From: Chloroflexota bacterium
GTDB taxonomy: Bacteria > Chloroflexota > UBA11872 > VXOZ01
NCBI GenBank assembly: GCA_022824225.1
Contig: JAJEAH010000011.1
Span: 1 to 49,472 of the forward strand
Direction of reading: 5' to 3'
DNA: 49,472 nt
Shown here: piece by piece, positions 5,945 to 33,431 of the stretch
Layout of the letters: each line of letters starts with the position of its first letter
How positions within the stretch are numbered: the stretch's first letter is position 1
Translations under genes and position numbers: made by a program
Notes under the pieces: generated by a model
Told to the model about the DNA's origin: nothing
The model's database searches: none
Seen by the model: the letters and a program-made list of their open reading frames with translations, nothing else

Positions 5945-6001
5945 TGTTGCTCCTCCTCGGTACCTAACGTAATGTCGAGAGTAGGGAAGGCACGAGTACC
6001 G

Positions 6002-6547: not shown

Positions 6548-6572
6548 AGATGTCGTTTGTTGGTACGTGTCG

Positions 6573-13005: not shown

Positions 13006-14241
13006 GCGTGGGCGTGCGCAGCACGCGCACAGAGTCGGCTGGGACTCTCTATGGCTAAAGGCGCGTTCGCCGTTGCGTGCGCTGTGCCCGGGGAGACGGC
13101 GCGATTGGCCGGTTGGACGCAGTGGGCGGCAGACCGGCGCTTCCAGTCTCCACTTACCCCCTAGCTTGTTCGCGATAGCGCGCGGCGCGTGTTGCCGTCC
13201 GCCGCCATCCCGCGCTCATCATGCTCGACCTGGGATTTCCGTCAGGGAACCTGGGTAGTTTTCGTCGGTTCAGCATTGGCCTATACGGCCCAAGAGCTGG
13301 CGTCGTGCCATTGGTCAATGTAAGAGCTAGATAAGAATCCCCTAGCTGGATATTGCTATCGGCGTATGCCGTGCGTACTATGTGCCTAGGGTGCGGACGG
13401 CGTGCCGGGCAGTATTTTGACGGGTTTGGCGGCGCGCCCGCAAAGGGGGACCAAGCGCGTGAAGCGGGTTCGACGCTGCTATTTCGCTGCTAATTGAGCT
13501 GTGGGCGGGTGGCTCTGCTTGGGCCGGGCGCGCGCAAGGCGCTGACATTTCTCTAGCTCATCCCATCCACACAAGGCGAAATCCAACCAGGGCGACATTT
13601 GCGCGCGGCGGCCCCCGAGGGTTGCGACGGCCATGCAAGCGGCACTCCTGCACCCTCGGCGCGAACCCGTAGTCGGCGCTTAGCCGGGCGAATAATCGAG
13701 AGGCCTTTACGATGAGACTAGTGGGTCTAGGGCCGCGAGAAGGAATGGCGTTCCGGCGACTGCTGCGCACACGGCGGTGGGGCGTGAACATGCGTTTGCC
13801 CGCATTCGTGCTGCCTGTGAGCCGCACGCTCATGCGCCGAAACAGGCGGTCCGACCTCGTGCAGGTATTCGCGGCGGCGGCCGGATTTGGTCGCCTGCCC
13901 CTGCGTGTGCCGGGAGCGGGACGGATGTTGCCGGGATTTCGCCACCTTGGCGCCGTAGCGCTGCTTGGGGTGGCGCTGCACTATGCCCTGTGGCAGACGG
14001 GCCTGCGCGCTCGCCGGACCGGCCCGCGCCAAGCGGGACCTGCGGCAGCCGGGCGGGTCCACCGCCAAGGCGACGGTACTCTGCCATATTGGCTGCGGGC
14101 GGGCGCGAACCGCAAGCTGCCGCGGCCGGACTCCAGCGCCTGAACCGGCGCCGCAAGCCGCATGCGCAGGGCTCAAGTTGTGTATACTTCTGTGAAACGT
14201 ACGTGCGGACCGCATAGTCTGGTAAGTGGGAGTTGCGAGCG
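13006..14241. other. 1.2-kb gap, no convincing gene
   Basis: The stretch holds only GC-driven ORFs. The longest (13712-14143) has an arginine-rich composition, no ribosome site and no recognisable motif. A short GCGTGC/GCACGC hairpin at 13012-13026 follows the nuclease gene but lacks a T-tract. A TATACT -10-like hexamer is at about 14182-14187, upstream of the SUMF1-like gene, without a good -35. Confidence 0.6.
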
Positions 14242-15228
14242 GTGGCCATTGCGGAAGAACGACTCGGCCAGGAAATCTGGGCAGACTTGCAGAGCAATGT
14301 GCGGGAGCGCATACACGGCGCGCTCCTCATGCTCAGCGAGCGGGAAAAGCACATCGCCCTCGTCGACCTTGCGCGCATGGTTGCTACGCCCAACCAATAC
14401 AGCGCGGCGCAGAGGATTTCGGTAGGAAAAGCGCTTTCCTACCTGGGCGACCCGCGCATCCGCACACTGGCGCCGCAGATGAACCGTGTCCCGGCAGGCG
14501 CATTCACCATGGGCACCGACGAAGCTGCGGTGCAAGAAATGTTCAGCGTCGATGGCGGCACAGACGACCGCGCGGCGCAAGCGGCAGCGCTCATGGAAAC
14601 GCCGGCGCGTACGGTGGAACTGCCGCGCTATGCCATTGGCAGATACCCGGTGACCAACGGCGAGTTCCGCTCGTGTGTGCTCGCGGGCCGGGCGCCGCCC
14701 CGCGGCTACTGGGACGGCACGGACGTTGACCCCTGGCTGCAAAATCAGCCGGTGCGGGACGTTTCGTGGGAAGAAGCCGTAGGCTACTGCGATTGGCTGG
14801 CGGACGAGACCGGCTTGCCCTATCGTTTGCCCACGGAAGAGGAATGGGAAAAGGCGGCGCGGGGCGCCGACGGCAGGCGCTATCCCTGGGGAGACGAATA
14901 CGGTTACACCTGCGCCAACCTCTGGGAAGGCGCGGTGAATGAGCCAACGCCGGTTGGCGTCTATCCGGACGGTATCAGCCCCTACGGGGTCTTGGATATG
15001 TCCGGCAACGTCGCCGAATGGACGGCGTCGTTCATAGGCGCGTATCCGGACTCGGCGGGCAGTGCGGCGGTATCGGCGCAGATCGACGATTTCGGTCGGT
15101 ACCGGGTTGTGCGGGGCGGCTGTTGGCGCGACCCGCAGCGGCACGCGCGTTGCGCGACTCGGGGCAATCCGGCCGCTGTGGGCGGGGAAGCAATTGGGTT
15201 TCGCCTTGCCGTAGATGTAGCCGATTAA
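14242..15228 (+). CDS. SUMF1 / formylglycine-generating-enzyme-like domain protein
   Basis: The first 75 residues are a helical segment. The rest is an FGE-sulfatase (SUMF1) fold: VPAGAFTMGTDE, YPVTNGEF, VRDVSWEEAVGYCDWL, YRLPTEEEWEKAARGADGR, YPWGDE, VLDMSGNVAEWT and VVRGGCWRD. In true FGE the catalytic pair follows the GGSW motif at W+2 and W+7. Here the cysteines are just before W and ten residues after it, so the canonical pair is absent. The protein may be a SUMF1-fold relative (sensor, EgtB-like or sugar-binding) and not the sulfatase activator. The GTG at 14242 is 9 nt after GGGAG. It lies upstream of the ABC operon but has its own gap of 247 bp. Confidence 0.85.
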   Translation: MAIAEERLGQEIWADLQSNVRERIHGALLMLSEREKHIALVDLARMVATPNQYSAAQRISVGKALSYLGDPRIRTLAPQMNRVPAGAFTMGTDEAAVQEMFSVDGGTDDRAAQAAALMETPARTVELPRYAIGRYPVTNGEFRSCVLAGRAPPRGYWDGTDVDPWLQNQPVRDVSWEEAVGYCDWLADETGLPYRLPTEEEWEKAARGADGRRYPWGDEYGYTCANLWEGAVNEPTPVGVYPDGISPYGVLDMSGNVAEWTASFIGAYPDSAGSAAVSAQIDDFGRYRVVRGGCWRDPQRHARCATRGNPAAVGGEAIGFRLAVDVAD

Positions 15229-15475: not shown

Positions 15476-18400
15476 ATGAAGAACCTGGAAAAGGTAGTCA
15501 CGAGGTTGCAGGCGGCTATGAAGCAGTCTGCCACGGTGCGTGGGCTGCGCTCGTGGTCTGCTTGGGTCAACCTGTGCCTGGCTGTGATGCTGGTCACTAT
15601 TTCCATTCCCACCGCGGCCTCCGCGGCCGTATATGCCCAGCAAGGCAACCAGCAAGACCAGCAAGCGGATGATGCCGAGGATGAGAAGGAAGGCACTTTC
15701 ATCACCCACGCGACCGGTGTTATCGAGGTGAAACTCGAGCCCAGCTATGCCGAGTTGCAGGAAGAATACGCGAAGAATGCGTATGAGTGGGTGGAGGATG
15801 CCGAAGTAGTCATCAATCCTGCGGATTTCATTCGCCACCGCGGCGTAGAGCCGGAATTCTTGGATGAACTCGGCGGCAAGACCGGTGACATCCTGAACTG
15901 GCAGGAAGAGACTGAGTGGTTAGAGTGGCGCGTGAACGTGCCCAAGACCGGTCTCTACAACATTGAGCTCGAGTATTTCCCAGTGGCGGGCAAGCGCGCA
16001 TCCATCCAGCGGCGCATTCAAATCGATGGCGAGTTCCCATTCCAAGAGGCGCGGCGGCTCGTCTTTGTGCGTTTCTGGCAGGATAAGGGACTGCCGACCA
16101 CCGACAATCAGGGCAACGACCGGCGTCCCGGCCAGTTTGAGCAACCCCGCTGGGAAACGGTCCGCATTATCGACGGCGACGGCATGTATCCCTGGCCGTT
16201 CGACTTCTACCTAACGGAAGGCGAGCACGTCATTCGCCTGGTCACGGTGCGCGAACCCATCGCGATTCGCAGCATCCGGCTCGTGCCGCCTTCCCGGCCG
16301 CCGACGTATGCCGAGGTGCTCCAGACCTATGAGGAGCAAGGGTACAAGAACGCCAGCGAGGTGCTTATCCGGCACCAGGCGGAACTGCCCGTAGAGCGCA
16401 CCGAAGCCACTATCCGCATGGAATACACGTCCGGACCGTTGGTAGACCCGTTCTCATCCGGCTACGTGCGGTTGAACGCCTATGGTTCGTACCGTTGGCG
16501 GCGGGCGCTCCAGGCGGCTACGTGGGAATTCGAAGTGCCTGAGGACGGCCTCTATAAGATTGCGTGGCGGCGTTGGCAAGCGTATGCAAGCTTCTTGCCT
16601 TCCGCGCGGCGCATCTTGATCGATGGGAAGGTGCCGTTCCAGGAACTCAATAGCTTCCTCTTTACGCCCGACAATGACCGCGATTGGCGCATCGTCCACT
16701 TTGGGGAGCGCGCCGGCGAGGGCGAGCCGTATCTCTTCTATCTGACCAAGGGTAAACACACCCTGACGATGGAGGTAACGGTCGGCCCCTCCGCGGATAC
16801 TATCCGCGCCATCAACAAGGTTGTAACCGACCTTTCCATTATGGTGCGCGAGATTACCATGATTACGGGCGTCAATCCTGACCCGTACATGGAGTTCGAC
16901 CTTACTTCGCGTATCCCCACGCTGGTGCCGCGCTTGGTGACCAACTATGAGTTGCTCGAAGCGCAGGTCGGCCACATGACGATGGTGAACAATGGCGTGC
17001 GGCCGAACGTGGCGAACGTGCTGGGCGAGGTGGCATTCCAATTGCGGGACATGGCCCGGGACCCAGAGAGTATGTCCCGCCGCCTGAGCGACCTGAGCGC
17101 CAGCCAGGGACGCCTATCCCAGTGGCTGCTCTACTTGCGAGAGCACCCGTTGTGGTTGGACTACTTGCTGATCAGCAACCCGGAGATGGACCTGGGCGTC
17201 GGTAAAGCCAACATCTTCCTCAAGGGTTGGGTCGGCTTCATGAACTTCCTGAGTTCATTCGTGCGCAACTACTACGGCGTGGGCTCCATCTACGGTGACG
17301 ACGATAACACCATCACCGTGTGGGTGGCGCGTGGCCGTGAGTGGGGCATGATCATGAAGGACATGACCGAGGACGATTTCACCCCGGCTACCGGCATCGC
17401 CGTCAATCTCCAGGTGTTCCCACCGGCGCAGTTGAGCGCGGGTTCCGTGAACGTGCTGCTGCTCTCTGTGGCGAGCGGCGTGACACCGGACGTGGCAACC
17501 GGTGTTCTTCCCGACGTGCCGGTGGAATTCGCCATACGTAACGGCGTGGCGAACGTAAACAAGTTCGTGGACTATCAGGAGGTGGCGACGCGGTTCCGTC
17601 CAGGTGCGCTCCTGCCCTTCCGTTGGGAGGGCGGCGACTACGCCTTGCCGGAAACGCAAGACTTCCTGATGATGTTCTACCGTACCGACATCTTCAATGA
17701 ACTGGGGCTGACTCCGCCCGACACGTGGGATGACCTCTACAACATGATCTGGCTGCTTCAGCAGCGAGGCATGGACTTCTTCTTCCCGCCGGTGGGTGTG
17801 TCGGCAGGCGGTGGCTTGTACGGTTTGGCAGAGGCGCTTGTGCCGGGGTTCTTGCCGTTCTTGTATCAGAATGGTGGAGACTTCTATACCGATAGCGGCT
17901 TGAGCGCCTTGGATTCGCCGGAAGCCCTGGCGGGTTTCCGCGAGTGGACCGAGTTGTACACGAACTACAAGATTACCCAGCAGGCGGACTTCTACAACCG
18001 CATGCGCACGGGCGAAATGCCCATCGGCGTATCCGGCTTCTTCACCTACATCTTGCTTTCCGTGGCGGCGCCTGAGCTTGAAGGTCGTTGGGAAATGCGC
18101 CCGCTGCCGGGCAAGCGACGGCCGGACGGTCAGGTGGACCGCACTTCCGGCGGTTACGGACAAGCCGTGGTCATCATGGACAACTCCGAAAAGCAAGATA
18201 TGGCTTGGGAGTGGGTGAAGTGGTGGACGTCTGAAGGCGCGCAGGCCCGGTTTGGCGAAGAACTCGAGGCATTGATTGGGACGGAGGCCCGTTGGAATAC
18301 GGCCAACGTGAAGGCCCTCAATCAGCTTCCTTTCCCGCAGAAGGATATTGAGTCTATCCAGGAGCAGTGGCGTTGGTTCAAGGAGCAACCCGTAACGCTG

Positions 18401-18580
18401 GGCGGATACTTCACCCCGCGTCACATCATCAACGCCTGGAACAGAGTGGTGCTCCAGGGCTGGAATGCACGTGAAGCCCTGGAAGAAGCAGTCAAGCAGA
18501 TCGACCGCGAGCTCATTCGCAAGCGCGAAGAGTTCGGCCTGGAGGTCGATCTCACGAAGACGAAAGGGGGTCTTGAATAA
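15476..18580 (+). CDS. Large extracellular solute-binding protein with tandem beta-sandwich modules
   Basis: At 1034 residues this is more than twice a normal sugar-binding protein. A signal sequence occupies about residues 1-50 (hydrophobic stretch VNLCLAVMLVTISIP, then AASA). Two beta-sandwich, carbohydrate-binding-module-like repeats lie near 145-275 and 335-440; each has a W-x-(V/F)-x-V-P-x-x-G-L-Y phrase and an I-D-G-x-x-P-F-Q-E phrase. A helical linker covers about 440-600. From about 610 (NTITVWVARGREW) there is a type 1 solute-binding domain with YRTDIFNELGLTPPDTWDD and GYGQAVVIMD. It should capture glycans outside the membrane for the permeases that follow. ATG follows AGGGTGGA. Its stop overlaps the next start. 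Confidence 0.88.
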   Translation: MKNLEKVVTRLQAAMKQSATVRGLRSWSAWVNLCLAVMLVTISIPTAASAAVYAQQGNQQDQQADDAEDEKEGTFITHATGVIEVKLEPSYAELQEEYAKNAYEWVEDAEVVINPADFIRHRGVEPEFLDELGGKTGDILNWQEETEWLEWRVNVPKTGLYNIELEYFPVAGKRASIQRRIQIDGEFPFQEARRLVFVRFWQDKGLPTTDNQGNDRRPGQFEQPRWETVRIIDGDGMYPWPFDFYLTEGEHVIRLVTVREPIAIRSIRLVPPSRPPTYAEVLQTYEEQGYKNASEVLIRHQAELPVERTEATIRMEYTSGPLVDPFSSGYVRLNAYGSYRWRRALQAATWEFEVPEDGLYKIAWRRWQAYASFLPSARRILIDGKVPFQELNSFLFTPDNDRDWRIVHFGERAGEGEPYLFYLTKGKHTLTMEVTVGPSADTIRAINKVVTDLSIMVREITMITGVNPDPYMEFDLTSRIPTLVPRLVTNYELLEAQVGHMTMVNNGVRPNVANVLGEVAFQLRDMARDPESMSRRLSDLSASQGRLSQWLLYLREHPLWLDYLLISNPEMDLGVGKANIFLKGWVGFMNFLSSFVRNYYGVGSIYGDDDNTITVWVARGREWGMIMKDMTEDDFTPATGIAVNLQVFPPAQLSAGSVNVLLLSVASGVTPDVATGVLPDVPVEFAIRNGVANVNKFVDYQEVATRFRPGALLPFRWEGGDYALPETQDFLMMFYRTDIFNELGLTPPDTWDDLYNMIWLLQQRGMDFFFPPVGVSAGGGLYGLAEALVPGFLPFLYQNGGDFYTDSGLSALDSPEALAGFREWTELYTNYKITQQADFYNRMRTGEMPIGVSGFFTYILLSVAAPELEGRWEMRPLPGKRRPDGQVDRTSGGYGQAVVIMDNSEKQDMAWEWVKWWTSEGAQARFGEELEALIGTEARWNTANVKALNQLPFPQKDIESIQEQWRWFKEQPVTLGGYFTPRHIINAWNRVVLQGWNAREALEEAVKQIDRELIRKREEFGLEVDLTKTKGGLE

Positions 18581-19545
18581 TGGCCGAGGTTAAGAGCGGC
18601 AGTTCGGGCGCAGGAGCCGCGACACAACCGCAGGCGGTGGCGAAGCCGAAGTCCGGCTTGCAGCGCCTTCTCGCGCAGTACGGCGTGTCGTACGCCTTCT
18701 TGCTGCCCTACATGATCTTCTTCTTCGCCTTCCTGATCATTCCGGTGGGCGTGGCGGTCTGGCTGAGCTTTACGTACTTCAACATGCTGGAACCGCCGCG
18801 GGTGATTGGCTGGTCAAATTACCGCCTATTATTCTTGGAGGATGACATCTTCGTCCTCTCCATCCGCAATACGCTATTCTTCGCGTTTATTACGGGTCCG
18901 GTGAGCCTTACCGCCTCGTTCCTGTTGGCGTGGTTCATCAACCAGATCCGCGTGCGCACAATCTACGCGTTGGCGTTCTATGCGCCTTCCCTGACCAGCG
19001 CAATCGCGATGGCGGTCGTGTGGCGGATCGTCTTTTCCGGCGACCGCTACGGTTACATGAACTACTTCTTCATGCGCATGGGCTTTATCCAAGAACCCTT
19101 CCTGTGGCTCATCGACCAGCGCACGATGTTGCCGGTGATCATGTTCGTCATGCTCTGGATGAGCATGGGGAACAATTTCCTGGTCTTCTTGGCCGGTCTG
19201 CAGACGGTGAATACCGAACTCTATGAAGCGGGCAAGGTGGACGGAATTTCACATCCGCTGCAAGAGATGTGGTACATTACCCTGCCTTCCATGAAACCGC
19301 AGGTCTTGTTCGGCGTTATCAACGCCGTGGTCCTCATGTTCTCCGCAGGCTTCGAGATTTCACTCTCCTTGGCTGGGCTGCCCAGTCCGTTGTATGCGGC
19401 GCACATGATTCTGTCGCACTTGTATGACTATGCCTTTATCCGATTCGAGATGGGGTATGCGGCGGCCATTGCCGTGATCCTCTTCATCATCACCTTTGGT
19501 GTGGGGCAGGGCGCGTTGCGCATGCTCTCCACCAAAGACGAATAG
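18580..19545 (+). CDS. ABC sugar transporter permease, MalF type (first pair)
   Basis: A 321-residue inner-membrane permease. The TAATG overlap couples it to the solute-binding protein gene. After a short polar N-terminus there are about six membrane segments, beginning YAFLLPYMIFFFAFLIIPVG. The EAA loop that docks the ATPase reads EAGKVDGISHPLQEMWYITLP near residue 212. No ATP-binding gene is in this operon, so a shared MsmX/UgpC-type ATPase encoded elsewhere is inferred. Confidence 0.94.
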   Translation: MAEVKSGSSGAGAATQPQAVAKPKSGLQRLLAQYGVSYAFLLPYMIFFFAFLIIPVGVAVWLSFTYFNMLEPPRVIGWSNYRLLFLEDDIFVLSIRNTLFFAFITGPVSLTASFLLAWFINQIRVRTIYALAFYAPSLTSAIAMAVVWRIVFSGDRYGYMNYFFMRMGFIQEPFLWLIDQRTMLPVIMFVMLWMSMGNNFLVFLAGLQTVNTELYEAGKVDGISHPLQEMWYITLPSMKPQVLFGVINAVVLMFSAGFEISLSLAGLPSPLYAAHMILSHLYDYAFIRFEMGYAAAIAVILFIITFGVGQGALRMLSTKDE

Positions 19546-19566
19546 CCTAGGAAGGGGAATCGTCAC

Positions 19567-20427
19567 ATGATTATCAAAGTCGGCAGATTTAGGATGACCA
19601 GCGGTGAGTTTACGACCATCGCAGCATTGACTATCCTTGCTGCCTTCATGTCCCTGCCGCTGATTTTCGTCGTCTCGCACGCGCTAAAGCCGATCGATGA
19701 GTTGTTCCTGTTCCCGCCGCGCTTCATTGTGCGGAACCCAACGCTGCGGAACTTCCAGGACCTGCTCATCGCAACGTACTCCCTCAACGTGCCCTTCATC
19801 CGGTACATCTTCAATAGTGTCTTCGTGGCCTTTTGTACGGTAATCGGCGGTGTGCTCCTGGCGAGCTTGGCCGCGTATCCGCTGGCGAAGCACAACTTCC
19901 CAGGTCGAAACACGATTTTCTTGGTCGTGATTGCCGCGCTCATGTTCACGCCGCAGGTTACCGCCATTCCGCGGTACCTGGTGGTGTATCAACTCGGCAT
20001 CATCGATACCTACTTTGCCCTGGTGCTTCCCAACTTGGCCATCCCGTATGCGCTCTTCCTCATGAAGCAGTTCATGGAGCAAATCCCGGGTGCATTGATT
20101 GAATCGGCGAAGATCGACGGGGCGTCAGAGTGGACTGTTTTCTGGCGCGTTGTCATGCCGCTGGTTACTCCGGCGTGGGCGACCCTCGTGATCATTATCT
20201 TCGTGGGCACGTGGAATGACATTTGGGCGCCGCTGGTGTTTACGCGCACGGAGTCGATGCGGACGCTGCCTATCGCGTTGCAGACCTTGATTAGCCAGGG
20301 CTCTGTGGCTCGGCAGGGAGCGTATGCGGCGGCAACATTCATCATGATTACTCCGCCGGTTGTGTTGTTTACTCTGGTGCAACGGCGCGTGATCGCTACC
20401 ATGGCGCATTCGGGAATCAAGGCGTAA
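19567..20427 (+). CDS. ABC sugar transporter permease, MalG type (first pair)
   Basis: A 286-residue partner permease starting 21 bp after the previous stop behind a GGAAGGGG ribosome site. It has six membrane segments and the EAA motif ESAKIDGASEWTVFWRVVMP near residue 178. The N-terminal FVVSHALKPIDELFLFPPRF phrase is typical of the MalG/CUT1 family. It should form a heterodimer with the preceding MalF-type protein. Confidence 0.94.
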   Translation: MIIKVGRFRMTSGEFTTIAALTILAAFMSLPLIFVVSHALKPIDELFLFPPRFIVRNPTLRNFQDLLIATYSLNVPFIRYIFNSVFVAFCTVIGGVLLASLAAYPLAKHNFPGRNTIFLVVIAALMFTPQVTAIPRYLVVYQLGIIDTYFALVLPNLAIPYALFLMKQFMEQIPGALIESAKIDGASEWTVFWRVVMPLVTPAWATLVIIIFVGTWNDIWAPLVFTRTESMRTLPIALQTLISQGSVARQGAYAAATFIMITPPVVLFTLVQRRVIATMAHSGIKA

Positions 20428-20484
20428 CCTTCTAGGCGGCAGCCGGATGCGGCTACCGGAGAAGCGGGCAAGGGATAGACCACT

Positions 20485-22593
20485 ATGTTTGGACGGAGAG
20501 GATCAAGATTGAAGGCCGGGCTGGCGCTCTTGGCGGCGCTTTGGCTCATCCTGACGTCGGCCGGCACGGCGTTTGCTTTGGAACTTGATCCAAAGCTGTC
20601 CTATACCATCGATCCCCGTAATCAACGGGTGCCGTCGCCCTTGCCCTACATCTTCGAGAAGGAAATCAATGGCATCCACCTCCCAACCGGAGCGTTCAAG
20701 GAGCCGTCCGACCTATTCCTGGACCATGAGGAGAACTTGTGGTTGGCGGATACCGGCAACGACCGGGTGCTTAAGTTCTCCCGCGAAGGTGAATACTTGC
20801 TTGAAATCAGCAATTTGAGCAAGCCTGAAGGCGTCTATGTGGACCCGGACGGCAACATCTTCGTGGCCGATACGGGAAATAACCGCATCTTGCGCTTGGA
20901 TCCCGAAGGCAACTTCGTCGATGAATTCTTCAAGCCCGAAACGACCCTGATCCCCGTTGACCATACGTTTGCGCCGAGCAAGTTGGTGGTTGACCGGAGC
21001 GGTCGCATCTACACGCTGGAGGCGGGAAGCAATCTCGGCATCATCGTGTTGGACGGCGAAGGCAGCTTCCGCGGCTTCTTTGGCGCAACGCGCTTGGACT
21101 TTAGCCTGCGGCGATTGATCGTCAGCATGTTCGCTACACAGGATCAGCGCCGTAAGATTTTCTTGCCGCAGCCGACCCCACACTCCAACCTCTTCCTCTC
21201 TGAGGACGGTTTCCTGTATACGGTCGTGGCGACTGCGGTGAAGGACCAATTGCAGAAGCTCAGCCCGGTGGGTGTGAATGTCTATCCCCATTCCACCTCC
21301 GTGGCCATCTACATGCGGTTCTTCAAGGAAGACTCCCTCAAGTTCTACGGCGAGCGGGAGGGCGCCGGCCGGCGCACCCAATTCCCGCGCTTCTCAGACG
21401 TAAACGTGAACGAGGCCGGCATCATTACGGTGGTGGACGCGAATTCGGCGAAAGTCTACCAGTACGACCAGGATGGCGAGCCGTTGCTGGCCTTTGGCGG
21501 CCGCGGCGTGCAACAGGGCCAGCTTGGGTATCCAACCAGCGTGGTAACGGATTCCGAAGGCCAGCTATTTATCCTGGATGCCATCCGAAACAACATCCAG
21601 GTGTACCGGCCGACGTTGTTCGCCCGTCTGGTGCATTCTGCCAGCAAGTTCTATTGGGATGGCAGGTACGATGAGGCGGCGAACCTTTGGCAGCAAGTGC
21701 TGAAGCTCGATGCCAACATGTATCTGGCCCATAGCGCGCTGGGCAAGGCGCTCTATCGACAGGAGCGCTATCAGGACGCGATGGTCGAGTACTTCCGGGG
21801 CTATGACAAGGATGAGTACGCCAAGGCGTATTCGGAAGCGCGCTATCTGTGGATGCGCGCGAACTTCGGCCTGTTCATGCTCTATCTCTTCCTTGGCATC
21901 GGCGCCATCATCGTCATCCCGCGCGGGACCCGGCGCGTGTTCGAGTTTGGCTTCCAGCGCGGTATCCTGAACCGGGAGAGTACGTGGTACAAGATCTACC
22001 GGCAAGGCGTAGGGGTGCTCCGCGATCCCATGGAGACTTTCTGGGCCTTGCGGGAAGACTCAACCTGGTGGACCGTGTGGACGATGCTGATATTGGCCAT
22101 CATCGTGCGCATGCTCACGCTCAATACCGTGAGTTTCCACTACTCCAGCATCGATCCTGAGGACATCAACTTCGTTCTGGAAGTGTCGCGCATTCTCGTG
22201 CCGTTCGCGGTCTGGGTGATCGCCAACTACGGTGTGAGCGCTATTTTCTATGGTGAGGGTTCGCCCAAGGTGGTGGCGGCGACGACGGCCTACTGTCTGC
22301 AGCCGTACATCTTGATCGCTCTGCCGCTGGCGCTCGTCTCTAACGTGCTGACCACCGACGAGAGTGCGCTCTATGGCTTTGCGCAGACGGCTATGTATTG
22401 GTGGATGGGCGTTCTCATCTACCTGCAGGTGAAGGTCGTCCATGACTTCGAATTCAAGCGCGCCGCAGGCGTTGCGTTCCTAAACATTTGGGGCATGGTG
22501 GCGATTTTCGGCATCTCAGCCCTCAGCTATTTCATGTCTTCGCGGGTGATCCGCTTCCTCTGGGAGGTCGTCTATGAAGTTGTCACTCGCTAA
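20485..22593 (+). CDS. NHL beta-propeller - TPR - YIP1 multi-domain membrane protein
   Basis: A 702-residue protein. A signal or anchor segment (residues 10-31) precedes an extracytoplasmic six-bladed NHL-like propeller (about 60-370) with repeated phrases such as LWLADTGNDRVLKFSREGEY and NIFVADTGNNRILRLDPEGN. A TPR-like pair follows (about 385-450, YDEAANLWQQVLKLDANMY and RYQDAMVEYFRGYDKDEY). Then come one membrane segment near 461-479 and a C-terminal YIP1-type domain with about five more segments. Its position between permease pairs suggests an assembly, scaffold or sensing role in the import machine. From memory, YIP1 and DUF5696 genes co-occur with such permeases in other bacteria. No enzyme activity is evident. 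Confidence 0.85.
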   Translation: MFGRRGSRLKAGLALLAALWLILTSAGTAFALELDPKLSYTIDPRNQRVPSPLPYIFEKEINGIHLPTGAFKEPSDLFLDHEENLWLADTGNDRVLKFSREGEYLLEISNLSKPEGVYVDPDGNIFVADTGNNRILRLDPEGNFVDEFFKPETTLIPVDHTFAPSKLVVDRSGRIYTLEAGSNLGIIVLDGEGSFRGFFGATRLDFSLRRLIVSMFATQDQRRKIFLPQPTPHSNLFLSEDGFLYTVVATAVKDQLQKLSPVGVNVYPHSTSVAIYMRFFKEDSLKFYGEREGAGRRTQFPRFSDVNVNEAGIITVVDANSAKVYQYDQDGEPLLAFGGRGVQQGQLGYPTSVVTDSEGQLFILDAIRNNIQVYRPTLFARLVHSASKFYWDGRYDEAANLWQQVLKLDANMYLAHSALGKALYRQERYQDAMVEYFRGYDKDEYAKAYSEARYLWMRANFGLFMLYLFLGIGAIIVIPRGTRRVFEFGFQRGILNRESTWYKIYRQGVGVLRDPMETFWALREDSTWWTVWTMLILAIIVRMLTLNTVSFHYSSIDPEDINFVLEVSRILVPFAVWVIANYGVSAIFYGEGSPKVVAATTAYCLQPYILIALPLALVSNVLTTDESALYGFAQTAMYWWMGVLIYLQVKVVHDFEFKRAAGVAFLNIWGMVAIFGISALSYFMSSRVIRFLWEVVYEVVTR

Positions 22594-25024
22594 GGGGTGG
22601 CGCGTCGCACGGTTCTTCGTGCCACTGGTCCTGCTCCTGACCATATTGCCGATTGCGCCGGTTACGGCCGCGCCGGCACTGAATCCTGAGCAGGAGTTAG
22701 GGCCGACTTTTGAGAAGGTCAGTCAGGTAGAGCACCTTTCGCTCTACTTGAATAAAGAGAATTCGCAGTTGGCGGTGTTCGACGATCGGGAGAATGGGCG
22801 ACTGTGGCGTAGTTCCCCAATTCTGGAGAACCCCGAGGCGGTCTCGGACTCCATCAAGGCTCGCCTGAACTCCGTAGTCATTGTCGAGTATACGGACAAG
22901 GTGCGGACCCAGACTCGTGTGGCCGACATTATCTCGGATGTGCCGAAGTTGACCTTTACCCCGATAGACGGGGGTATTGAGGTTGACTACTTGTTCGAAG
23001 AGCTGAACATTGGCTTCACAATCGACTACTGGCTGGAAGACGACCGGCTGGTGGTGGGGGTGGACGACGATAGTGTGCGCGAGACCGAAGAGCGCCTGCT
23101 CGTCACCCTGGACATTCTGCCCTTCCTCGGCGCTGCGACCAATGAGGAAAAGGGTTACCTCTTCGTGCCCGACGGCCCGGGCGCTATTGTCCATTTCCGT
23201 CCGGAGCAGCCGGAATACCGGCACAATTTCTTGGCCGAGGTGTACGGTCCGGCCCTCTTCTCGTTCGAGCCCGAACAGCAGCAAGGCCCGATTCCAGTGC
23301 CGGTTTTTGGCCTGGTGCGGGGCGAGTCCGCATTTACGGGCATCGTTACGAAAGGGGATATGGATGTCAACATCAGCGCGGCGCTGAGCTATACGGCGCT
23401 GGGCTATAACCGAATCTCCGGTCAGTTCATCTTCCGGCGCAAGGCGCCGTTCCCGCTGCGCCGCGCGTCGTTTGTGACCCGGTTCGAACAGGAGCGGGTG
23501 GAAGGCGATCGGGAGCTAAAGTACGCGTTTCTCCGCGGCTATGATGCCAGCTATGTCGGCATGGCCAAGGTGTATCGCGAGCATTTGATGGTCGATCGCG
23601 GCCTCGAACGGCTGGCGGAAGCAAATCCCTTCCTGCATCTGCGCATCTTCATGGCCATGCAACGCCAGGCGTTTCCGCGTGACCAGTTCATTGCCATGAC
23701 GACGTTCGATGATGCGCTGGCGATGCTCAAGACTCTGAAGGAAGACCGGGGCCTGGATAACCTGCGCGTGACCCTGGTCGGCTGGAGCCAAGACGGGTAC
23801 GATTGGTCGTTGCCCAAACGCTTGCCGCCGGAAGGCAGGCTTGGCGGCGAGGAGGGGCTGCGTTCGATCTCGAACTACGCCAATGCCAACGGTATACCAA
23901 TCTACCTGGAGGACAACTATCTGTTCGGCTTCAGGAATATCGACTCATTCTTCCGCTTCAACCCGCTGACGGACGTGATCCGCGGGGCGAACCGCCTGCC
24001 TATCACGACGAACTACGTTGGGTTCAAGCGCCGGGAGGACGAGCCGCACACAGAGGTACAACTCTTACGGCCGGAGATTGCCCGTGACCGCTACGCGACT
24101 GACGATATTGCCAAGATGAGTGAGCTTGGCGTTGACGGCGTCGAGTTCCGTTTCTTTGGCAAGGTTGCGCTCAACCACTATCCGATTGTCTTCACCGGCA
24201 GATCGGGCTTTACATCCGGCTTGCGGCTATTGGGAATCGCTGCATTCGCTCTCATTGGCCTCTACGTCGTGCTGATAGGCACAAAGCGGCCGAGCGACGC
24301 AATCCTGGGCCAGCTTGTTGGCGGTCCGCTGTGGCGGCCGATCGCTAGCGGGGTGCTGCTCGTGGTCTTGATTGGCGGCTATTTCATCGAGATTCGCAAC
24401 ATGCAGCAACCGGTGGATACTGAGCAAGGCGGCACGAAGCTAAGTCGCCAAGAGTTTGTCGATGTCTGGAGAGACATCGTCGAAATCAGCAAGGATGAGA
24501 CGGGGACCGCGGTAATCCAGGGCGCGAATGCCTACATGTTGGATAGCACTGATTTCTTTACCAGAGTGCCTCTGGACCGCTACAACTACGTGTTCAGCGA
24601 AGAGACCGTGCCCTTCTTCCCATTGGCGGTACACGGGCTCGTCCGCTATACCGGCGATGAGAGCAATCTGCGCAGCGACCGTGACGAGTTCTTGCGCGCT
24701 ATCGAATACGGCGCATTGCCCACGTTCGAGCTGACAGAGAACCCAAGCGTTTTGCTCACGCGCACACAGTACAACCGGCTCTATTCTTCGCGATTTGCCG
24801 ACTGGGAGCCCCAGATTGTCGACGAGTATGAACTATTCGTGCGGCAGTTGGGCTACACCGTAAACTTGCTCATGGACGACCACCGCCAGATTGCGGACGG
24901 CGTCTATGAGACGGTCTACGAGGACGGCACACGCGTGATCGTGAATTACAAGACGCGTCGCTATACGGATGGCGAAAACGCGGTTGAGGGCCAGAACTAT
25001 CTCATCATACCGCCGCGGAGGTAA
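22574..25024 (+). CDS. DUF5696-like exported protein with internal membrane hairpin
   Basis: An 816-residue protein whose ATG lies inside the end of the YIP1 gene (20-bp overlap). It has a signal peptide (1-35), a beta-rich N-terminal half (VEHLSLYLNKENSQLAVFDD, FVPDGPGAIVHF), then a TIM-barrel-like part (VTLVGWSQDGYDWSLPKRLP near residue 400). The C-terminal part from about 620 contains LSRQEFVDVWRDIVE, LRAIEYGALPTFEL and VYEDGTRVIVNYKTRRY, which I recognise as DUF5696 style. Unusually, two hydrophobic segments at about 548-568 and 590-607 interrupt this domain. It may be a glycan-active or glycan-binding protein linked to the transporter. Enzymatic residues are not established. Confidence 0.8.
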   Translation: MKLSLAKGWRVARFFVPLVLLLTILPIAPVTAAPALNPEQELGPTFEKVSQVEHLSLYLNKENSQLAVFDDRENGRLWRSSPILENPEAVSDSIKARLNSVVIVEYTDKVRTQTRVADIISDVPKLTFTPIDGGIEVDYLFEELNIGFTIDYWLEDDRLVVGVDDDSVRETEERLLVTLDILPFLGAATNEEKGYLFVPDGPGAIVHFRPEQPEYRHNFLAEVYGPALFSFEPEQQQGPIPVPVFGLVRGESAFTGIVTKGDMDVNISAALSYTALGYNRISGQFIFRRKAPFPLRRASFVTRFEQERVEGDRELKYAFLRGYDASYVGMAKVYREHLMVDRGLERLAEANPFLHLRIFMAMQRQAFPRDQFIAMTTFDDALAMLKTLKEDRGLDNLRVTLVGWSQDGYDWSLPKRLPPEGRLGGEEGLRSISNYANANGIPIYLEDNYLFGFRNIDSFFRFNPLTDVIRGANRLPITTNYVGFKRREDEPHTEVQLLRPEIARDRYATDDIAKMSELGVDGVEFRFFGKVALNHYPIVFTGRSGFTSGLRLLGIAAFALIGLYVVLIGTKRPSDAILGQLVGGPLWRPIASGVLLVVLIGGYFIEIRNMQQPVDTEQGGTKLSRQEFVDVWRDIVEISKDETGTAVIQGANAYMLDSTDFFTRVPLDRYNYVFSEETVPFFPLAVHGLVRYTGDESNLRSDRDEFLRAIEYGALPTFELTENPSVLLTRTQYNRLYSSRFADWEPQIVDEYELFVRQLGYTVNLLMDDHRQIADGVYETVYEDGTRVIVNYKTRRYTDGENAVEGQNYLIIPPRR

Positions 25025-25030
25025 GGGGCC

Positions 25031-26005
25031 ATGCAATTTGAGGATAATTTTTTCTGGGTAGCTGTTCTCACTGGGCTGGCCTTGGTCGTCCCGGCGTGTA
25101 TTCTGTCGCTTCGCGTTGCCCTGTCGGCGGTCGGCGTGCGGTTGACCTACCGGTTCCAACGCGCGATGGATGGCTATTTCTACATCAGCACGTGGATCGT
25201 GGGTTTCCTGATCTTCCTGGCATGGCCGTTGTTCCAATCACTCTACGTGAGCTTCCACAACGTGAAGATCACCAGTTCCGAGTTGAAGTTGACGTTCATT
25301 GGGTGGGAGAACTACGCGGAGCCCTTCCTCGAGGATATTCACTTTCTGCCGCTCTTTACGAAGACGGTAGCAAATCTGCTATCGGACTTGCCGATCATTT
25401 TGGTGTTCTCTCTGTTCGTGTCCATCTTGGTCGTGCAGGAAATGCCGGGTCGGGGCGTGTTCCGCATGCTCCTCTTCATGCCGGTGGTGATTGGTTCGGC
25501 CATCGTCATCCGGCGCCTCTTCGGCGAAGGCGTGAGCACAGAGGCTATCGGCGTGAGTGTCCAGACCCTGAGCGAGGTGGTGTTTACGTACCTGCAAGGC
25601 ACGATCGCTGACTGGGTCTTGGACCTGGTAAATCGGGTGACGTTGGTGCTGTGGCGGACCGGCGTCCAGATTCTCATCTTCGTCGCGGGTCTCCATAGCG
25701 TGCCGATTACGATGCGCGAGGCGGCAAAGACGGACGGCGCTTCCGGCTGGCAGATCTTCTGGCGTATCACCCTGCCGATGCTGTCCCCCGTGATCCTGGT
25801 CAATGTGGTCTACACCATCGTCGATTCGTTCACCGACCCCTTCAATGAAGTACTCACCTACATTCAGACCGTGGGCCTGACCCGAGACTTCCGGCTTGGC
25901 TATGCGGCGGCTTTGGGCTGGATGTACTTTGCGTCAATTTTCTTGTTCATGGCGCTTGCTCTCCTGATCTCAAGCCGCTTTGTCTTCTACGCAGGTGAAC
26001 GGTAG
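25031..26005 (+). CDS. ABC sugar transporter permease, MalF type (second pair)
   Basis: A 324-residue permease starting 6 bp after the DUF5696 gene behind AAGGGG. It carries an extra N-terminal hydrophobic segment (WVAVLTGLALVVPACILSL) before the usual STWIVGFLIFLAWPLFQSLY. The EAA loop is REAAKTDGASGWQIFWRITL near residue 232. With the next gene it forms a second heterodimer, so the operon encodes two distinct channels or one composite. Confidence 0.93.
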   Translation: MQFEDNFFWVAVLTGLALVVPACILSLRVALSAVGVRLTYRFQRAMDGYFYISTWIVGFLIFLAWPLFQSLYVSFHNVKITSSELKLTFIGWENYAEPFLEDIHFLPLFTKTVANLLSDLPIILVFSLFVSILVVQEMPGRGVFRMLLFMPVVIGSAIVIRRLFGEGVSTEAIGVSVQTLSEVVFTYLQGTIADWVLDLVNRVTLVLWRTGVQILIFVAGLHSVPITMREAAKTDGASGWQIFWRITLPMLSPVILVNVVYTIVDSFTDPFNEVLTYIQTVGLTRDFRLGYAAALGWMYFASIFLFMALALLISSRFVFYAGER

Positions 26006-26016
26006 GGAGTACCAGC

Positions 26017-26955
26017 ATGGCTGATTCCGTATTCGTCATACGCCAGCGCACAGGTGTACTTGGTGCGCTGACGTCCCGAAAGTGGTGGGAGCTGCTCTTC
26101 CTGCGCATCGCCACGTACATAATCTTGATAAACGTCTGCTTTGTGTTCCTGTTCCCGGTAATCTACATGTTCTCCACGTCGCTCAAGACGGTGGCGGACT
26201 TAGCGGACTTGACAGTCCTGTGGATACCGCGGACCTTCTTCTGGCGGAACTATGAGCTCGCGATCAGCGGCATGCTCTACTGGCAGGCGGCGAGGAACAG
26301 CATCATCATCTCGGTGGGTTCCGCGGTGTTGCAGACAGTGGCATGTTCGTTTGTGGCTTATGGGTTTGCGCGTATTCCGTTCCCGGGCCGGGACGTCTTG
26401 TTCCTGCTGGTGCTCTTCACGTTCCTGGTGCCGCCGCAGACTATCATTGTCCCGCTCTTCATTCTCTACCGTAACCTGGGTTTCATGGATACGTACTTCC
26501 CGTTCCTGATCCCCTCCCTGTTCGGTCATGGTCTGCGGGGTGCGCTGTTCATCCTGGTGTTCCGACAGTTTTTCAGGAACTTACCGTACGAATTAGAGGA
26601 CGCGGCGAGAATAGACGGAGCCGGGCCGTTCAGTGTGTATTGGCGAATCATGTTGCCGCTGGCAACCCCGGCCATCATCGTGGTGTTCCTCTTTTCGCTG
26701 GTGTGGCACTGGAACGACTTCTTCGAACCCACCATCTACCTGTTCGATCAAAACAACTTTACCTTGCCGTTGCGGCTTTCGATTTTGAGCGCGGCATTGC
26801 TGCAAATGCTAGCCGGGCAAGGCGCGGGGGATGAGTTCAATGAGGCTGTGATTATGGCCGCGTCATTCCTTGTGATTATGCCGCCCCTCATAATCTACTT
26901 ATTCACTCAGCGCTACTTTGTGGAGAGCGTCGACCGCACCGGCCTGGTGGAATAG
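26017..26955 (+). CDS. ABC sugar transporter permease, MalG type (second pair)
   Basis: A 312-residue permease and the last gene of the operon, 11 bp after its partner. Membrane segments start at IATYIILINVCFVFLFPVIY, and the EAA loop is EDAARIDGAGPFSVYWRIML near residue 193. FLVPPQTIIVPLFILYRNLG is typical for CUT1 MalG proteins. A terminator-like hairpin follows 33 bp downstream. Confidence 0.94.
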   Translation: MADSVFVIRQRTGVLGALTSRKWWELLFLRIATYIILINVCFVFLFPVIYMFSTSLKTVADLADLTVLWIPRTFFWRNYELAISGMLYWQAARNSIIISVGSAVLQTVACSFVAYGFARIPFPGRDVLFLLVLFTFLVPPQTIIVPLFILYRNLGFMDTYFPFLIPSLFGHGLRGALFILVFRQFFRNLPYELEDAARIDGAGPFSVYWRIMLPLATPAIIVVFLFSLVWHWNDFFEPTIYLFDQNNFTLPLRLSILSAALLQMLAGQGAGDEFNEAVIMAASFLVIMPPLIIYLFTQRYFVESVDRTGLVE

Positions 26956-27474: not shown

Positions 27475-28470
27475 ATGGAGCCGTACCGGTATCAGCCCCC
27501 CCGGCGGCGGTCGCGCGGAAACAGGCCGGCGTTTCGGGTTTGGCTCCTGGCGATGGTGTTGGCTTTGAGCGGCGTTATGTTGCTCTTGCGCTATGCTTCC
27601 GCGCCTACGGCCCCGGTGATAGTAGTGGCCGAAAACACGCCGGTGGTGGCGGAAGAGATTGTGGCCACGGTTTCCCCGCCGCGCGTCCATTTTTCGTATG
27701 CGTGGTTGGAGCAAAATCCAGCGCCGCCGCTTGACAGTTTTACGGCTAAGTCGGCGTTCCTGGTGGATCTAGGCACCAAGTCTGTGCTCTATGCCAGCAA
27801 TGAGCACACACAGCGCGCCCCCGCGAGCACGACGAAAATTCTTACAGCCGTGATTGCACTGGAAATTGCGGAAATCGAGCAAGAGATCGTGGTCTCGCAA
27901 CGGGCCGCGGAAACCGAACCCAATGTCATGGGCCTGAAAGCCGGCGAGGTCGTGCCGTTGAATATCTTGCTCTACGGCCTGATGTTGGACTCAGGCAATG
28001 ACGCCGCAATCGCGATTGCCGAAGGCACGCTTGGCTATGAGGCCTTCGTCCAGGCCATGAATGCTAAGGTGGAACAGCTTGAACTCCAGAATACGGAGTT
28101 CAGCAATCCCTCCGGCTATGACGAGGATGTGCTGCCTCACTACTCGTCGGCTCACGATTTGGCCGTACTGGCGGATTACGCGTTGGAGTGGGTGCCGGGC
28201 ATTGTCGAGTATGCGAGCACTACGCATATCTCGTTCACCGCCACCGATAGGCACGGTTGGTATGGGCCGCGGAACCTGAATAGCCTCTTGGTGACATATG
28301 AGGGCGTCTACGGATTGAAGCCCGGCTGGACGCCCGATGCGGAGTATTGTCTTGTGGCGGTAGCGGAGCGGGACGGGCGGCACCTGCTTGCCGTAGTGCT
28401 TGGCTCGACCCAACACTTTACCGATGCGGCCCTGTTACTGGACTATGGCTTTGCTCTGCCGCCGGTGTGA
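27475..28470 (+). CDS. D-alanyl-D-alanine carboxypeptidase (peptidase S11)
   Basis: A penicillin-binding-protein-type enzyme that trims peptidoglycan stem peptides. A basic N-terminus and one membrane segment (21-40) act as an anchor. The catalytic motifs are S118-T-T-K121 in RAPASTTKILTA, S173-G-N175 in LMLDSGNDAA, and K282-P-G284 in GLKPGWTPDAEY, where the more usual form is K-T-G. It ends at residue 331 without the long C-terminal domain of DacA. The start ATG has a weak GGAG site 12 nt upstream. Confidence 0.92.
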   Translation: MEPYRYQPPRRRSRGNRPAFRVWLLAMVLALSGVMLLLRYASAPTAPVIVVAENTPVVAEEIVATVSPPRVHFSYAWLEQNPAPPLDSFTAKSAFLVDLGTKSVLYASNEHTQRAPASTTKILTAVIALEIAEIEQEIVVSQRAAETEPNVMGLKAGEVVPLNILLYGLMLDSGNDAAIAIAEGTLGYEAFVQAMNAKVEQLELQNTEFSNPSGYDEDVLPHYSSAHDLAVLADYALEWVPGIVEYASTTHISFTATDRHGWYGPRNLNSLLVTYEGVYGLKPGWTPDAEYCLVAVAERDGRHLLAVVLGSTQHFTDAALLLDYGFALPPV

Positions 28471-30829: not shown

Positions 30830-31828
30830 CTAGCCGCCGATCTGGGACATGGTGCGGTTGGCGCGTTGGAAGAACTCGCCCTCATTGATGCGGTGCTTGA
30901 GTTCTTTCTGCCAGACCGCGGCGCGGATTATCTTCTCAAGCTCCGCGTCGCTGGCCCCATCGCGCAGTGGGCTCCGCAAATCCGTCTCTCGCACAGAGAA
31001 GAGGCACGTTCGGAACATACCCTCAGCCGTCAGGCGTATACGGTTGCACGAGGCGCAGAACGGCTCACTTACGGGGTTGATGAACCCAATTTCACCATTG
31101 CCGTCAGCAAAGCGATAGACTCGCGACGTGGAGGAAGGCTCGGTGGGGACGGGCGCCAATGGCACGGGCATGGCATTATTGACCATCTCCAGGATTTCCT
31201 TGCCGGTGAGCACGTTCTCTTCGCGCCAAATGCCGTCGGCATCCAGGGGCATGAACTCAATGAAACGCACCACGTAGGGTTTGCGGCGGGCAAGCTCGGC
31301 AAAGGCAACGACTTCGCGTTCGGTAAAGCCGCGAATCGCGACGGCATTGAGCTTGATTGGGCTGATAGTTGGGTACTTCTCCAACTCTTCCAGACCCTCG
31401 AGCACGGCATTGAGCGCGTTGCGCCGCGTAATGTAGGCAAAGTGCTCGGGGACAAGGCTATCAAGACTCACATTGATGCGGGTCAGCCCGGCCTCTGCCA
31501 GCGGCTTGGCCAGCGCCGTAAGCCGAAAGCCGTTGGTGGTGAGCGATAGGCTCTCCAGTTCGTCGATCAAGCGCAAGCGGCGAATCAGGTGCGGCAAGTC
31601 TTTGCGCACGGTCGGTTCGCCGCCGGTAATGCGGATATCCCGTACGCCCAGGCCTACGAACAGGCGGGCCAGCCGCTCGATTTCTTCATAGGTGAGGATT
31701 TCCTCGCGCGGCACCCACTGCATCATCTCTTCCGGCATGCAGTAGCGACAGCGAAAATTGCAGCGGTCCGTAATCGAGATGCGCAGGTTCTCGATCTGCC
31801 GACCGAAACTGTCTATCAACGGCTGCAT
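30830..31828 (-). CDS. moaA: GTP 3',8-cyclase MoaA (molybdenum cofactor biosynthesis)
   Basis: A radical SAM enzyme for the first step of molybdopterin synthesis. From the ATG at 31828 the protein has 332 residues. The SAM cluster is C23-NFR-C27-RY-C30, and the second cluster uses C258, C261 and C275 (FCASCNRIRLTAEGMFRTC). IRITGGEPTVRKDL is the usual SAM-contact motif. The C-terminal diglycine (SQIGG), needed for activity in the family, is intact. The start is chosen because GGAGA lies 7 nt upstream; the upstream in-frame extension to 31939 lacks a ribosome site. It fits with mobB in this window and with the molybdenum hydroxylase operon. Confidence 0.95.
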   Translation of the reverse strand: MQPLIDSFGRQIENLRISITDRCNFRCRYCMPEEMMQWVPREEILTYEEIERLARLFVGLGVRDIRITGGEPTVRKDLPHLIRRLRLIDELESLSLTTNGFRLTALAKPLAEAGLTRINVSLDSLVPEHFAYITRRNALNAVLEGLEELEKYPTISPIKLNAVAIRGFTEREVVAFAELARRKPYVVRFIEFMPLDADGIWREENVLTGKEILEMVNNAMPVPLAPVPTEPSSTSRVYRFADGNGEIGFINPVSEPFCASCNRIRLTAEGMFRTCLFSVRETDLRSPLRDGASDAELEKIIRAAVWQKELKHRINEGEFFQRANRTMSQIGG

Positions 31829-32024
31829 CGCGGTCTCCACATGGCTCAGCTTTCGCGCCGGCAATTGTCCGCTGGAACTATCGGACTTTCGCGGGGTGGA
31901 TTGTTGCATCCGCATCACAATTAGCCCCGCCGTGCCCATCTGCCAAGCGGGCGCCTGGTCCGGTGCGAACGCTTACCTGCTATTGCCCGGCCCGTCTAGT
32001 CCCATTATAGCGCACAGCCGTGAT
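31829..32024 (-). promoter_or_regulatory. Promoter and long leader of moaA
   Basis: A perfect TATAAT lies on the minus strand at 32009-32004, but no good -35 and no TGn extension is seen. It would give a leader of about 170 nt before moaA, long enough for a regulatory RNA such as a Moco-sensing element. I do not see a recognisable Moco riboswitch core. Confidence 0.4.
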
Positions 32025-33431
32025 TCAGCGTATAAGGGCTTGCAGGGCGCGCAGGACGGCCTCGTCATCCGCCGGCAGCACGGTACGGGGATCCAACACG
32101 ACGGCATCCCGTTCGATGCGCACCACGAGCGGCGGGTTGCCGGAGCGGAGCTTGCCTGCCAGCGCGTCCGGCGTCTGATCGGGAGAACTGAGGCGTAGCG
32201 CCCGCGTCGGCAACGTCTCGCCCGGCAACGAGCCGCCGCCGACTGCGGACTCTGCCGGCGCTACGCTGGCGGTGAACGCCGCCGCGTTTGCCGACCGGAG
32301 CGCCTGTTGCCAGCGGCGGGCGCGGTCCGCCAGTTCGCTCGGTTGCGCGGCAATCATCTGCCATACCGGTATGTGAGACAGGGCCTCAGCCTTTTGATAG
32401 TGGGAAAGCGTGGCTTCCAAGCCGGCGATGGTGGTCTTATCGAGGCGGAGCGCGCGGGTGAGGGGATGCCGTTGCATGGCGGCGATATAGTCGCTCTTGC
32501 CGGCAATCAATCCGCTCTGCGGACCGCCCAGCAGCTTGTCGCCCGAAAACGTCACTACCGCGCAGCCGGCAGCTAGCGCCTCTTGCACGGTCGGTTCCGG
32601 ATGGAGCCCAAAGTCCGCCGTATCCAGCAGGGAGCCGCTACCCAGATCGTAGATCACCGGGATGCCACGGCTGCCGGCCGCTGTTGCCAATTCAGCCAGA
32701 TTGGGTTCGTGCGTGAATCCCATTACCCGAAAGTTGCTCGAGTGCACCCGCAAAATGACCGCGGTTGCCGGGGTGATGGCGTCGCAAAAGTCAGCGACAT
32801 ACGTGCGATTTGTGGTGCCGACTTCCACCAACCGGGCGCCGCTCTGCGCCAGAACGTCGGGAATGCGAAAACCGCCGCCGATTTCAACGGCTTCGCCCCG
32901 GGAGACGATGACCTCTTTGCCGGCTGCCAGCGCGCTCAGGGCGAGCAGGATTGCGGCGGCGTTATTGTTCACCGCCAGCGCGTCCTCGGCGCCGGTGAGC
33001 GCCGATAGCGCCGCCGTTAGGTGGGTGTAGCGGGAGCCGCGCGTGCCGCCGGCCAGGTCGAACTCCAGATTGCTGTAACCGGCGCCAACGGCCGCCATGG
33101 CCTGCAAGGCGGCGGCGCTCAGCGGGGCGCGCCCCAAGTTGGTGTGCAGTATGACGCCGGTGGCATTGATAACCGGTTGCAGCGAGGGCTGAAAGCGTTG
33201 TGCCGCGGCCTGTTGCAGGCGGCGGGCCAACTCGTCGAGGGTGGGCGCGGCCGCGCCCTTGACGACTGCGGCGCGCGCCGCAGCCAAAACTTCGCGGGCC
33301 AAGTCTACCCGGACGTGATGGGGAAAGTCGAGGTCTAGAGTGGTGACGGCAGGCGCAAGCAGCAGCCGGTCGACGCTTGGGAGCCGCCGCAGGCTGTCTC
33401 TATGCTCCGTACTTGGCGAGTTTTTGCGCAT
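32025..33431 (-). CDS. selA: L-seryl-tRNA(Sec) selenium transferase SelA
   Basis: A PLP enzyme that converts Ser-tRNA(Sec) to selenocysteyl-tRNA(Sec). From the ATG at 33431 it has 468 residues, the normal length. The N-terminal LRRLPSVDRLL, the VINATGVILHTNLGRAPLS block and the PLP lysine K299 in FSGDKLLGGPQSGL are intact. The start lies inside the 3' end of apgM (32-bp overlap), which points to co-transcription. selB, selD and tRNA(Sec) are not in the window. Its presence implies that in-frame UGA can encode Sec in this genome. Confidence 0.95.
   Translation of the reverse strand: MRKNSPSTEHRDSLRRLPSVDRLLLAPAVTTLDLDFPHHVRVDLAREVLAAARAAVVKGAAAPTLDELARRLQQAAAQRFQPSLQPVINATGVILHTNLGRAPLSAAALQAMAAVGAGYSNLEFDLAGGTRGSRYTHLTAALSALTGAEDALAVNNNAAAILLALSALAAGKEVIVSRGEAVEIGGGFRIPDVLAQSGARLVEVGTTNRTYVADFCDAITPATAVILRVHSSNFRVMGFTHEPNLAELATAAGSRGIPVIYDLGSGSLLDTADFGLHPEPTVQEALAAGCAVVTFSGDKLLGGPQSGLIAGKSDYIAAMQRHPLTRALRLDKTTIAGLEATLSHYQKAEALSHIPVWQMIAAQPSELADRARRWQQALRSANAAAFTASVAPAESAVGGGSLPGETLPTRALRLSSPDQTPDALAGKLRSGNPPLVVRIERDAVVLDPRTVLPADDEAVLRALQALIR

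Follow-up and report, generated by a model that had tools for sequence, protein, structure and literature searches.

The window analyzed here is the whole 49.5-kb contig JAJEAH010000011.1 (49,472 nucleotides) of the 3.37-Mb draft genome of a Chloroflexota bacterium (GCA_022824225.1; 87 contigs, 95% complete). Between positions 15476 and 26955 it carries a cassette of seven genes that probably encodes a CUT1 sugar importer of the ATP-binding cassette (ABC) type with an unlinked ATPase; it differs from the closest known importers in having two permease pairs together with an NHL-TPR-YIP1 protein and a protein of the DUF5696 family. In this lineage, the dual-permease importer may well act as a shared hub for many solute-binding proteins (SBPs) dispersed over the genome. 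Since about 70 SBPs apparently have no permease beside them and only two CUT1 pairs were found, the gene counts suggest that the cassette probably has this role. The features of the locus are as follows.

15476..18580, plus strand: giant SBP of 1034 amino acids (Pfam SBP_bac_1, E value of 8e-20; AlphaFold model)
18580..19545, plus strand: MalF1, MalF-type permease with EAA-like loop EAGKVDGISHPLQEMWYITLP (BPD_transp_1; loop read in the translation)
19567..20427, plus strand: MalG1, MalG-type permease with EAA-like loop ESAKIDGASEWTVFWRVVMP (BPD_transp_1; GlcU, E value of 4e-34)
20485..22593, plus strand: NHL propeller-TPR-Yip1 membrane protein of 702 amino acids (Pfam NHL, TPR and Yip1)
22574..25024, plus strand: DUF5696 protein, GH129-fold ectodomain with an N-terminal anchor (Pfam DUF5696, 501 bits; fold model)
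24221..24394, plus strand: two-helix membrane hairpin within the DUF5696 barrel, approximately residues 550 to 607 (hydrophobicity peaks)
25031..26005, plus strand: MalF2, MalF-type permease with EAA-like loop EAAKTDGASGWQIFWRITLP (BPD_transp_1; loop read in the translation)
26017..26955, plus strand: MalG2, MalG-type permease with EAA-like loop DAARIDGAGPFSVYWRIMLP (BPD_transp_1; GlcU, E value of 3e-29)

A preliminary description of this DNA had named these seven genes as one operon without an ATPase. Their order and positions were confirmed to the base and their families by Pfam, no ABC ATPase turned up in the scanned open reading frames (ORFs) of the window, and the single strand, short gaps and conserved order bear out an operon-like cassette. 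All seven ORFs start with ATG, the gaps between them measure -1, 21, 57, -20, 6, and 11 bp in gene order, and the cluster has 247 bp free upstream and 519 bp free downstream. A weak consensus scan, uninformative here, gave no plus-strand promoter-like site inside the cluster, and the window had no matches in searches for Rfam families or tRNAs. The features of a CUT1 importer are present, namely, paired MalF/MalG permeases with EAA-type loops, an SBP with the MalE fold and, unlinked to them, a MalK-type ATPase with OB/TOBE domains. All four permeases match BPD_transp_1 above the cutoff, and their translations all contain EAA-type ATPase-coupling loops. The retention of these loops argues against a different view, which we consider quite improbable, that the products are chiefly a complex of the envelope that senses glycans or handles surface polymers and is anchored by the permease-like proteins. 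The YIP1 and NHL proteins, unusual for importers, and the D,D-carboxypeptidase gene downstream of the cassette (27475 to 28470), constant in the four congeners examined, would suit such a complex, but the MalK gene 5' of the Paenibacillus cassette and the sugar catabolic genes that flank the copies of several lineages also speak for import.

To evaluate the conservation of the cassette, we compared stretches of about 20 kb containing DUF5696 from 20 genomes of the phylum and from 20 named contigs, the latter scanned with a 7-row subset of the DUF5696 alignment, the 19-row version being too diverse. The order SBP-MalF-MalG-NHL-TPR-YIP1-DUF5696-MalF-MalG was common to nearly all loci with sufficient room and was found identically in four congeners, other Chloroflexota families, Paenibacillus and two Bacillota metagenome-assembled genomes. 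Its recurrence in both Chloroflexota and Bacillota indicates a real cassette rather than a chance arrangement; the gene set had been predicted to be conserved, and a search for its absence in relatives found it present instead. In several Chloroflexota the NHL-TPR and YIP1 parts are two adjacent genes, which indicates that the fusion is secondary or reversible. Two Caldilineaceae (L065 and L066) have at this site only the second half, from NHL-YIP1 to MalG2, preceded by a different SBP and followed by a GH127-like gene, and the two halves are therefore separable modules. The literature searched contained no publication naming DUF5696, and to that extent the system is undescribed, as had been supposed.

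The imbalance between permeases and binding proteins is what points to a hub. Only the four cassette permeases are MalF/MalG-like among the 17 BPD_transp_1 matches of the genome; the others were typed through representatives as Opp, Pst, ProW, ModB, Tau, amino acid and iron permeases. The permease set is the same in G117, a congener whose assembly has 9 contigs, again with only the cassette ones of the MalF/MalG type. The genome also has 77 SBP_bac_1 matches, about 70 of them apparently without an adjoining permease. The single binding protein of the preliminary description is thus single within the operon but not genome-wide, and there are more SBPs of the cognate type than permease pairs, the pattern by which SBP sharing is recognized (about 70 versus two CUT1 pairs). 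For 43 of the 47 SBPs among the matches listed in G117, no permease match lies within 20 kb; the remaining four are parts of the cassette and of molybdate (Mod), iron and amino acid systems. The dispersed SBPs occur singly or in small groups, most commonly beside MocA-type oxidoreductases and next most commonly beside DegT, sugar-isomerase-like and sulfatase genes. Twin arginines (RR) followed by a lipobox were found in 34 of the 35 examined, and the median identity to the best paralogue was 42%. That this excess is an assembly artifact, with permease genes lost from the drafts, seems scarcely credible: the genome is indeed a draft in 87 contigs and 95% complete, but its congeners show the same pattern, one of them in only 9 contigs, and the SBP loci lie on long contigs with other genes alongside. 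A binning gap was likewise set aside on the agreement of G117.

We then considered the ratio of SBPs to permeases in 41 genomes of the class, where, apart from those of G000, G117 and G221, joint-search counts above 42 represent first-look candidates. The ratio was 4.5 to 7 in the genus of the window, 2.0 to 2.2 in family f5 and 3.7 to 11 in two cassette-bearing genera of f4, versus 0.08 to 0.83 in f2 and f3, both of which lack the cassette. An SBP excess was therefore found mainly in cassette-bearing families (f1, f5 and two f4 genera), with exceptions. Several points weigh against a hub. Genera g6 and g7 of f4 have the cassette with an ordinary SBP ratio, while an excess is seen in G294 (fragmented) and G304 (69% complete), neither of which has a full DUF5696 match; these exceptions on both sides indicate that the cassette accompanies the SBP excess but does not require it. 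G221 encodes two additional CUT1-like pairs, the permease count derives from one Pfam model, the giant SBP was matched by only 3 of 35 dispersed SBPs, with distant similarity, and the p value of the ratio is overstated, as genomes from the same family lack independence. It is conceivable, and we propose it tentatively, that several Chloroflexota families practice hub-and-spoke sugar import, in which some 35 to over 200 separately encoded SBPs would all feed one dual-permease complex whose receptor is a pseudo-glycosidase. Imbalances larger than that of the window genus were seen in G294 (243 first-look SBP_bac_1 candidates versus 32 permease matches) and in G302 (232 versus 21).

The shared ATPase was looked for elsewhere in the genome, as the preliminary description had suggested, and two unlinked MalK-type ATPases were found; the absence of an ATPase from the genome was thereby set aside. 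All five members of the genus with a completeness of 95% or more encode exactly two OB_MalK ATPases each. Neither of those in the genome of the window adjoins a permease; one is preceded by a DUF624-like gene. Both Paenibacillus loci have a MalK gene directly upstream of the cassette, so that the lack of an ATPase in the gene set holds for the window but not for Paenibacillus. The product of this linked gene shows 51 to 52% identity to MalK1 and groups with the MalK1 type, and MalK2 with its DUF624-like gene was for that reason set aside as the dedicated ATPase, a candidacy also opposed by further MalK genes in f2 genomes without the cassette. The DUF624-like gene lies directly 5' of the second MalK-type ATPase (L092:4633-6566), and the same pair occurs in f5 (L165) and in G117 (L167). 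At another locus, a divergent gene for a truncated ABC ATPase of 85 amino acids adjoins the cassette SBP (L049:18590-18847, the same gene as L058:2186-2443) and is perhaps the remnant of a linked MalK.

The DUF5696 protein matches PF18952 with 501 bits (curated cutoff, 25.6). Its alignment-based model (pLDDT of 76, pTM of 0.79) resembles GH129 enzymes over the whole ectodomain, with a Foldseek E value of 1e-28, a TM score of 0.70 by target length, and VIA Z scores of 26.9 over 539 residues and 26.6 over 565. The fold is shared over the whole length with NagBb (5wzn) and ZgGH129 (5opq) at Z scores of 26 to 27, but unlike GH129 enzymes, the DUF5696 protein lacks the catalytic Asp/Glu pair, is membrane anchored and is encoded with permeases. 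By hhalign, the DUF5696 profile aligned to three GH129-like proteins of the phylum with a probability of 99.8 and an E value of 5.7e-28 over 599 columns. These three have an invariant Asp and Glu, aligned to D435 and E478 of NagBb, which we take to be the catalytic residues. The pair is complete in none of the 19 DUF5696 rows of the joint alignment: in the Asp column, the window genus has Arg and only six rows (L043 to L048) have Asp; in the Glu column, the window genus has Gln and only three rows (L039 to L041) have Glu. The alignment is gapped around the second catalytic site, and the loss of the pair is therefore a strong hint rather than proof. Judged by sequence and model, the protein is best interpreted as a pseudo-glycosidase that is anchored in the membrane and binds glycans. 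A role in capture or processing had been suggested; the absence of an intact GH129 catalytic pair makes capture more likely and processing less, and a normal GH129 enzyme encoded by the cassette was set aside on the same ground. It appears improbable that the protein is an active glycosidase that shortens the glycan at the membrane ahead of import, as part of a capture and processing complex. The GH129 fold across the ectodomain and the partial retention of each position (Asp in six rows, Glu in three) favor such an enzyme, and the gap at the second site leaves room for an alternative acid, but no row keeps both residues, and the window genus has Arg and Gln in their place.

The membrane hairpin is a feature of the window genus, absent from the rows of other genera in the DUF5696 alignment, and it interrupts the Pfam match in every congener with the gene. 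It is located near the would-be active site, close to the position of the lost catalytic residue. The heavy chains of the SLC3 family (4F2hc/rBAT) combine a glycosidase barrel fold with no enzymatic activity, a single anchor and a transporter partner; they serve here as a working analogy only, being animal proteins of another GH family. Three Chloroflexota proteins (L152, L028 and L029) match both DUF5696 and GH129 weakly, keep the catalytic pair and are likely true GH129 enzymes.

The AlphaFold model of the giant SBP (pLDDT of 79.9) shows an N-terminal hydrophobic helix, two beta-sandwiches (approximately residues 111 to 270 and 297 to 434), a helical bundle (439 to 555) and a MalE-type SBP domain (610 to 1021). 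The sandwiches have a weak CBM35-like character, barely tested by structure search. By VIA, the MalE-type domain is nearest to oligosaccharide binders, with many rows tied, among them MalE 3uor (Z score of 36.8 over 381 residues) and the beta-1,2-glucooligosaccharide-binding protein 5ysb (Z score of 36.5, 22% identity). In the NHL-TPR-YIP1 protein, the Yip1 domain (PF04893) scores 39.4 bits against a curated cutoff of 28.6, and five membrane segments follow residue 460.

Under the hub model, the two MalF/MalG channels would import oligosaccharides or related sugars, driven by the MalK-type ATPases encoded elsewhere, which we tentatively assign to both pairs. The giant SBP would bring cargo to the channels, and the approximately 70 dispersed SBPs, mostly twin-arginine lipoproteins, might also deliver theirs by docking on the cassette permeases. 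Glycans would be kept close to the channels by DUF5696, as a putative glycan binder, and by the CBM-like domains found in the giant SBP, and the NHL-TPR-YIP1 protein could act as a membrane scaffold. If this is true, access to a new sugar would require an additional SBP and an enzyme rather than another transporter, and the model would account for the range of organic matter that these Chloroflexota take up despite having few permeases. SBP counts would then misstate the number of transporters, as annotation would give about 70 sugar transporters instead of one shared channel set, and for DUF5696 the model would offer an initial interpretation of structure and mechanism, namely, a dead glycosidase that partners a transporter. 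The cassette is available as a defined set in culturable Paenibacillus.

The neighborhoods of the cassette offer hints about its substrate. In other Chloroflexota (L042 to L048) its flanks encode two PF10091 proteins, LacI and GH35; stretches reaching far enough also contain an ordinary SBP, GH94 and GH3. The same enzyme set forms the published beta-1,2-glucan gene cluster of Ignavibacterium album (PMC8861115, whose searched passages make no mention of the cassette itself). This set matches the L042 to L048 flanks but is absent around the window, where PF10091 (GH144-type), GH94 and GH3 were not found among the ORFs scanned, leaving no beta-1,2-glucan locus by gene content. The Paenibacillus copies adjoin a GH2 or GH106-like gene and an ordinary SBP. 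Both neighborhoods would favor a dedicated importer for one glycan class, such as beta-1,2-glucan or a related oligosaccharide, whose two channels would take two chain lengths while the dispersed SBPs had other roles or permeases. We consider this rather unlikely: the window genus lacks such flanking enzymes, the neighbors elsewhere vary by lineage, and about 70 SBPs would be left without any CUT1 permease. The lineage-dependent flanks indicate that the substrate of the cassette probably varies, and the ordinary SBPs near it in other lineages fit a cassette that accepts more than one SBP. Upstream of the cassette in the window is an FGE-sulfatase-type gene (14233 to 15228), constant in the four congeners examined.

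Cbc transporters serve quaternary amines, and Bug systems are TTT-type with few membrane components. Like the system described here, both have several or many SBPs, but the cassette permeases, on which the SBPs would dock, are of the sugar ABC type. Several SBPs on one Cbc transporter have been described (Thomas 2010 and Chen 2010, as cited in PMC12838199), and a very large Bug SBP family is reported for Bordetella (PMC11452294). CUT1 importers of the MsmX/MsmK/MsiK type share with the cassette the MalF/MalG permeases, the MalE-fold SBP and an ATPase gene located elsewhere. One of them, in Anaerocellum bescii, has two SBPs on one permease pair and an unlinked ATPase (PMC12838199), compared with two pairs, an NHL-TPR-YIP1 protein, a GH129-fold protein and tens of SBPs here. 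The literature searched held no precedent for SBP sharing at this scale among sugar ABC transporters. Sponge Chloroflexi with many sugar ABC transporters are described in PMC6306507, whose searched passages mention no imbalance between permeases and SBPs. Isolate names suggest that the bacterium of the window, too, may originate from a sponge.

Other genes of the window include a three-subunit molybdo-hydroxylase set of the xanthine/CO dehydrogenase type (3623 to 7451, minus strand), a MoaA-type radical SAM gene (30830 to 31939) and mobB (48673 to 49344). Also present are a sulfatase (497 to 1912), a DUF3604 protein (36596 to 38935) and a GHL6-type hypothetical glycosyl hydrolase (39216 to 41297). 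A gene of the L-seryl-tRNA selenium transferase family, SelA, was found at 32025 to 33551 (E value of 8e-138); two neighbors of SBPs elsewhere match SelA more weakly and may therefore be other pyridoxal phosphate enzymes.

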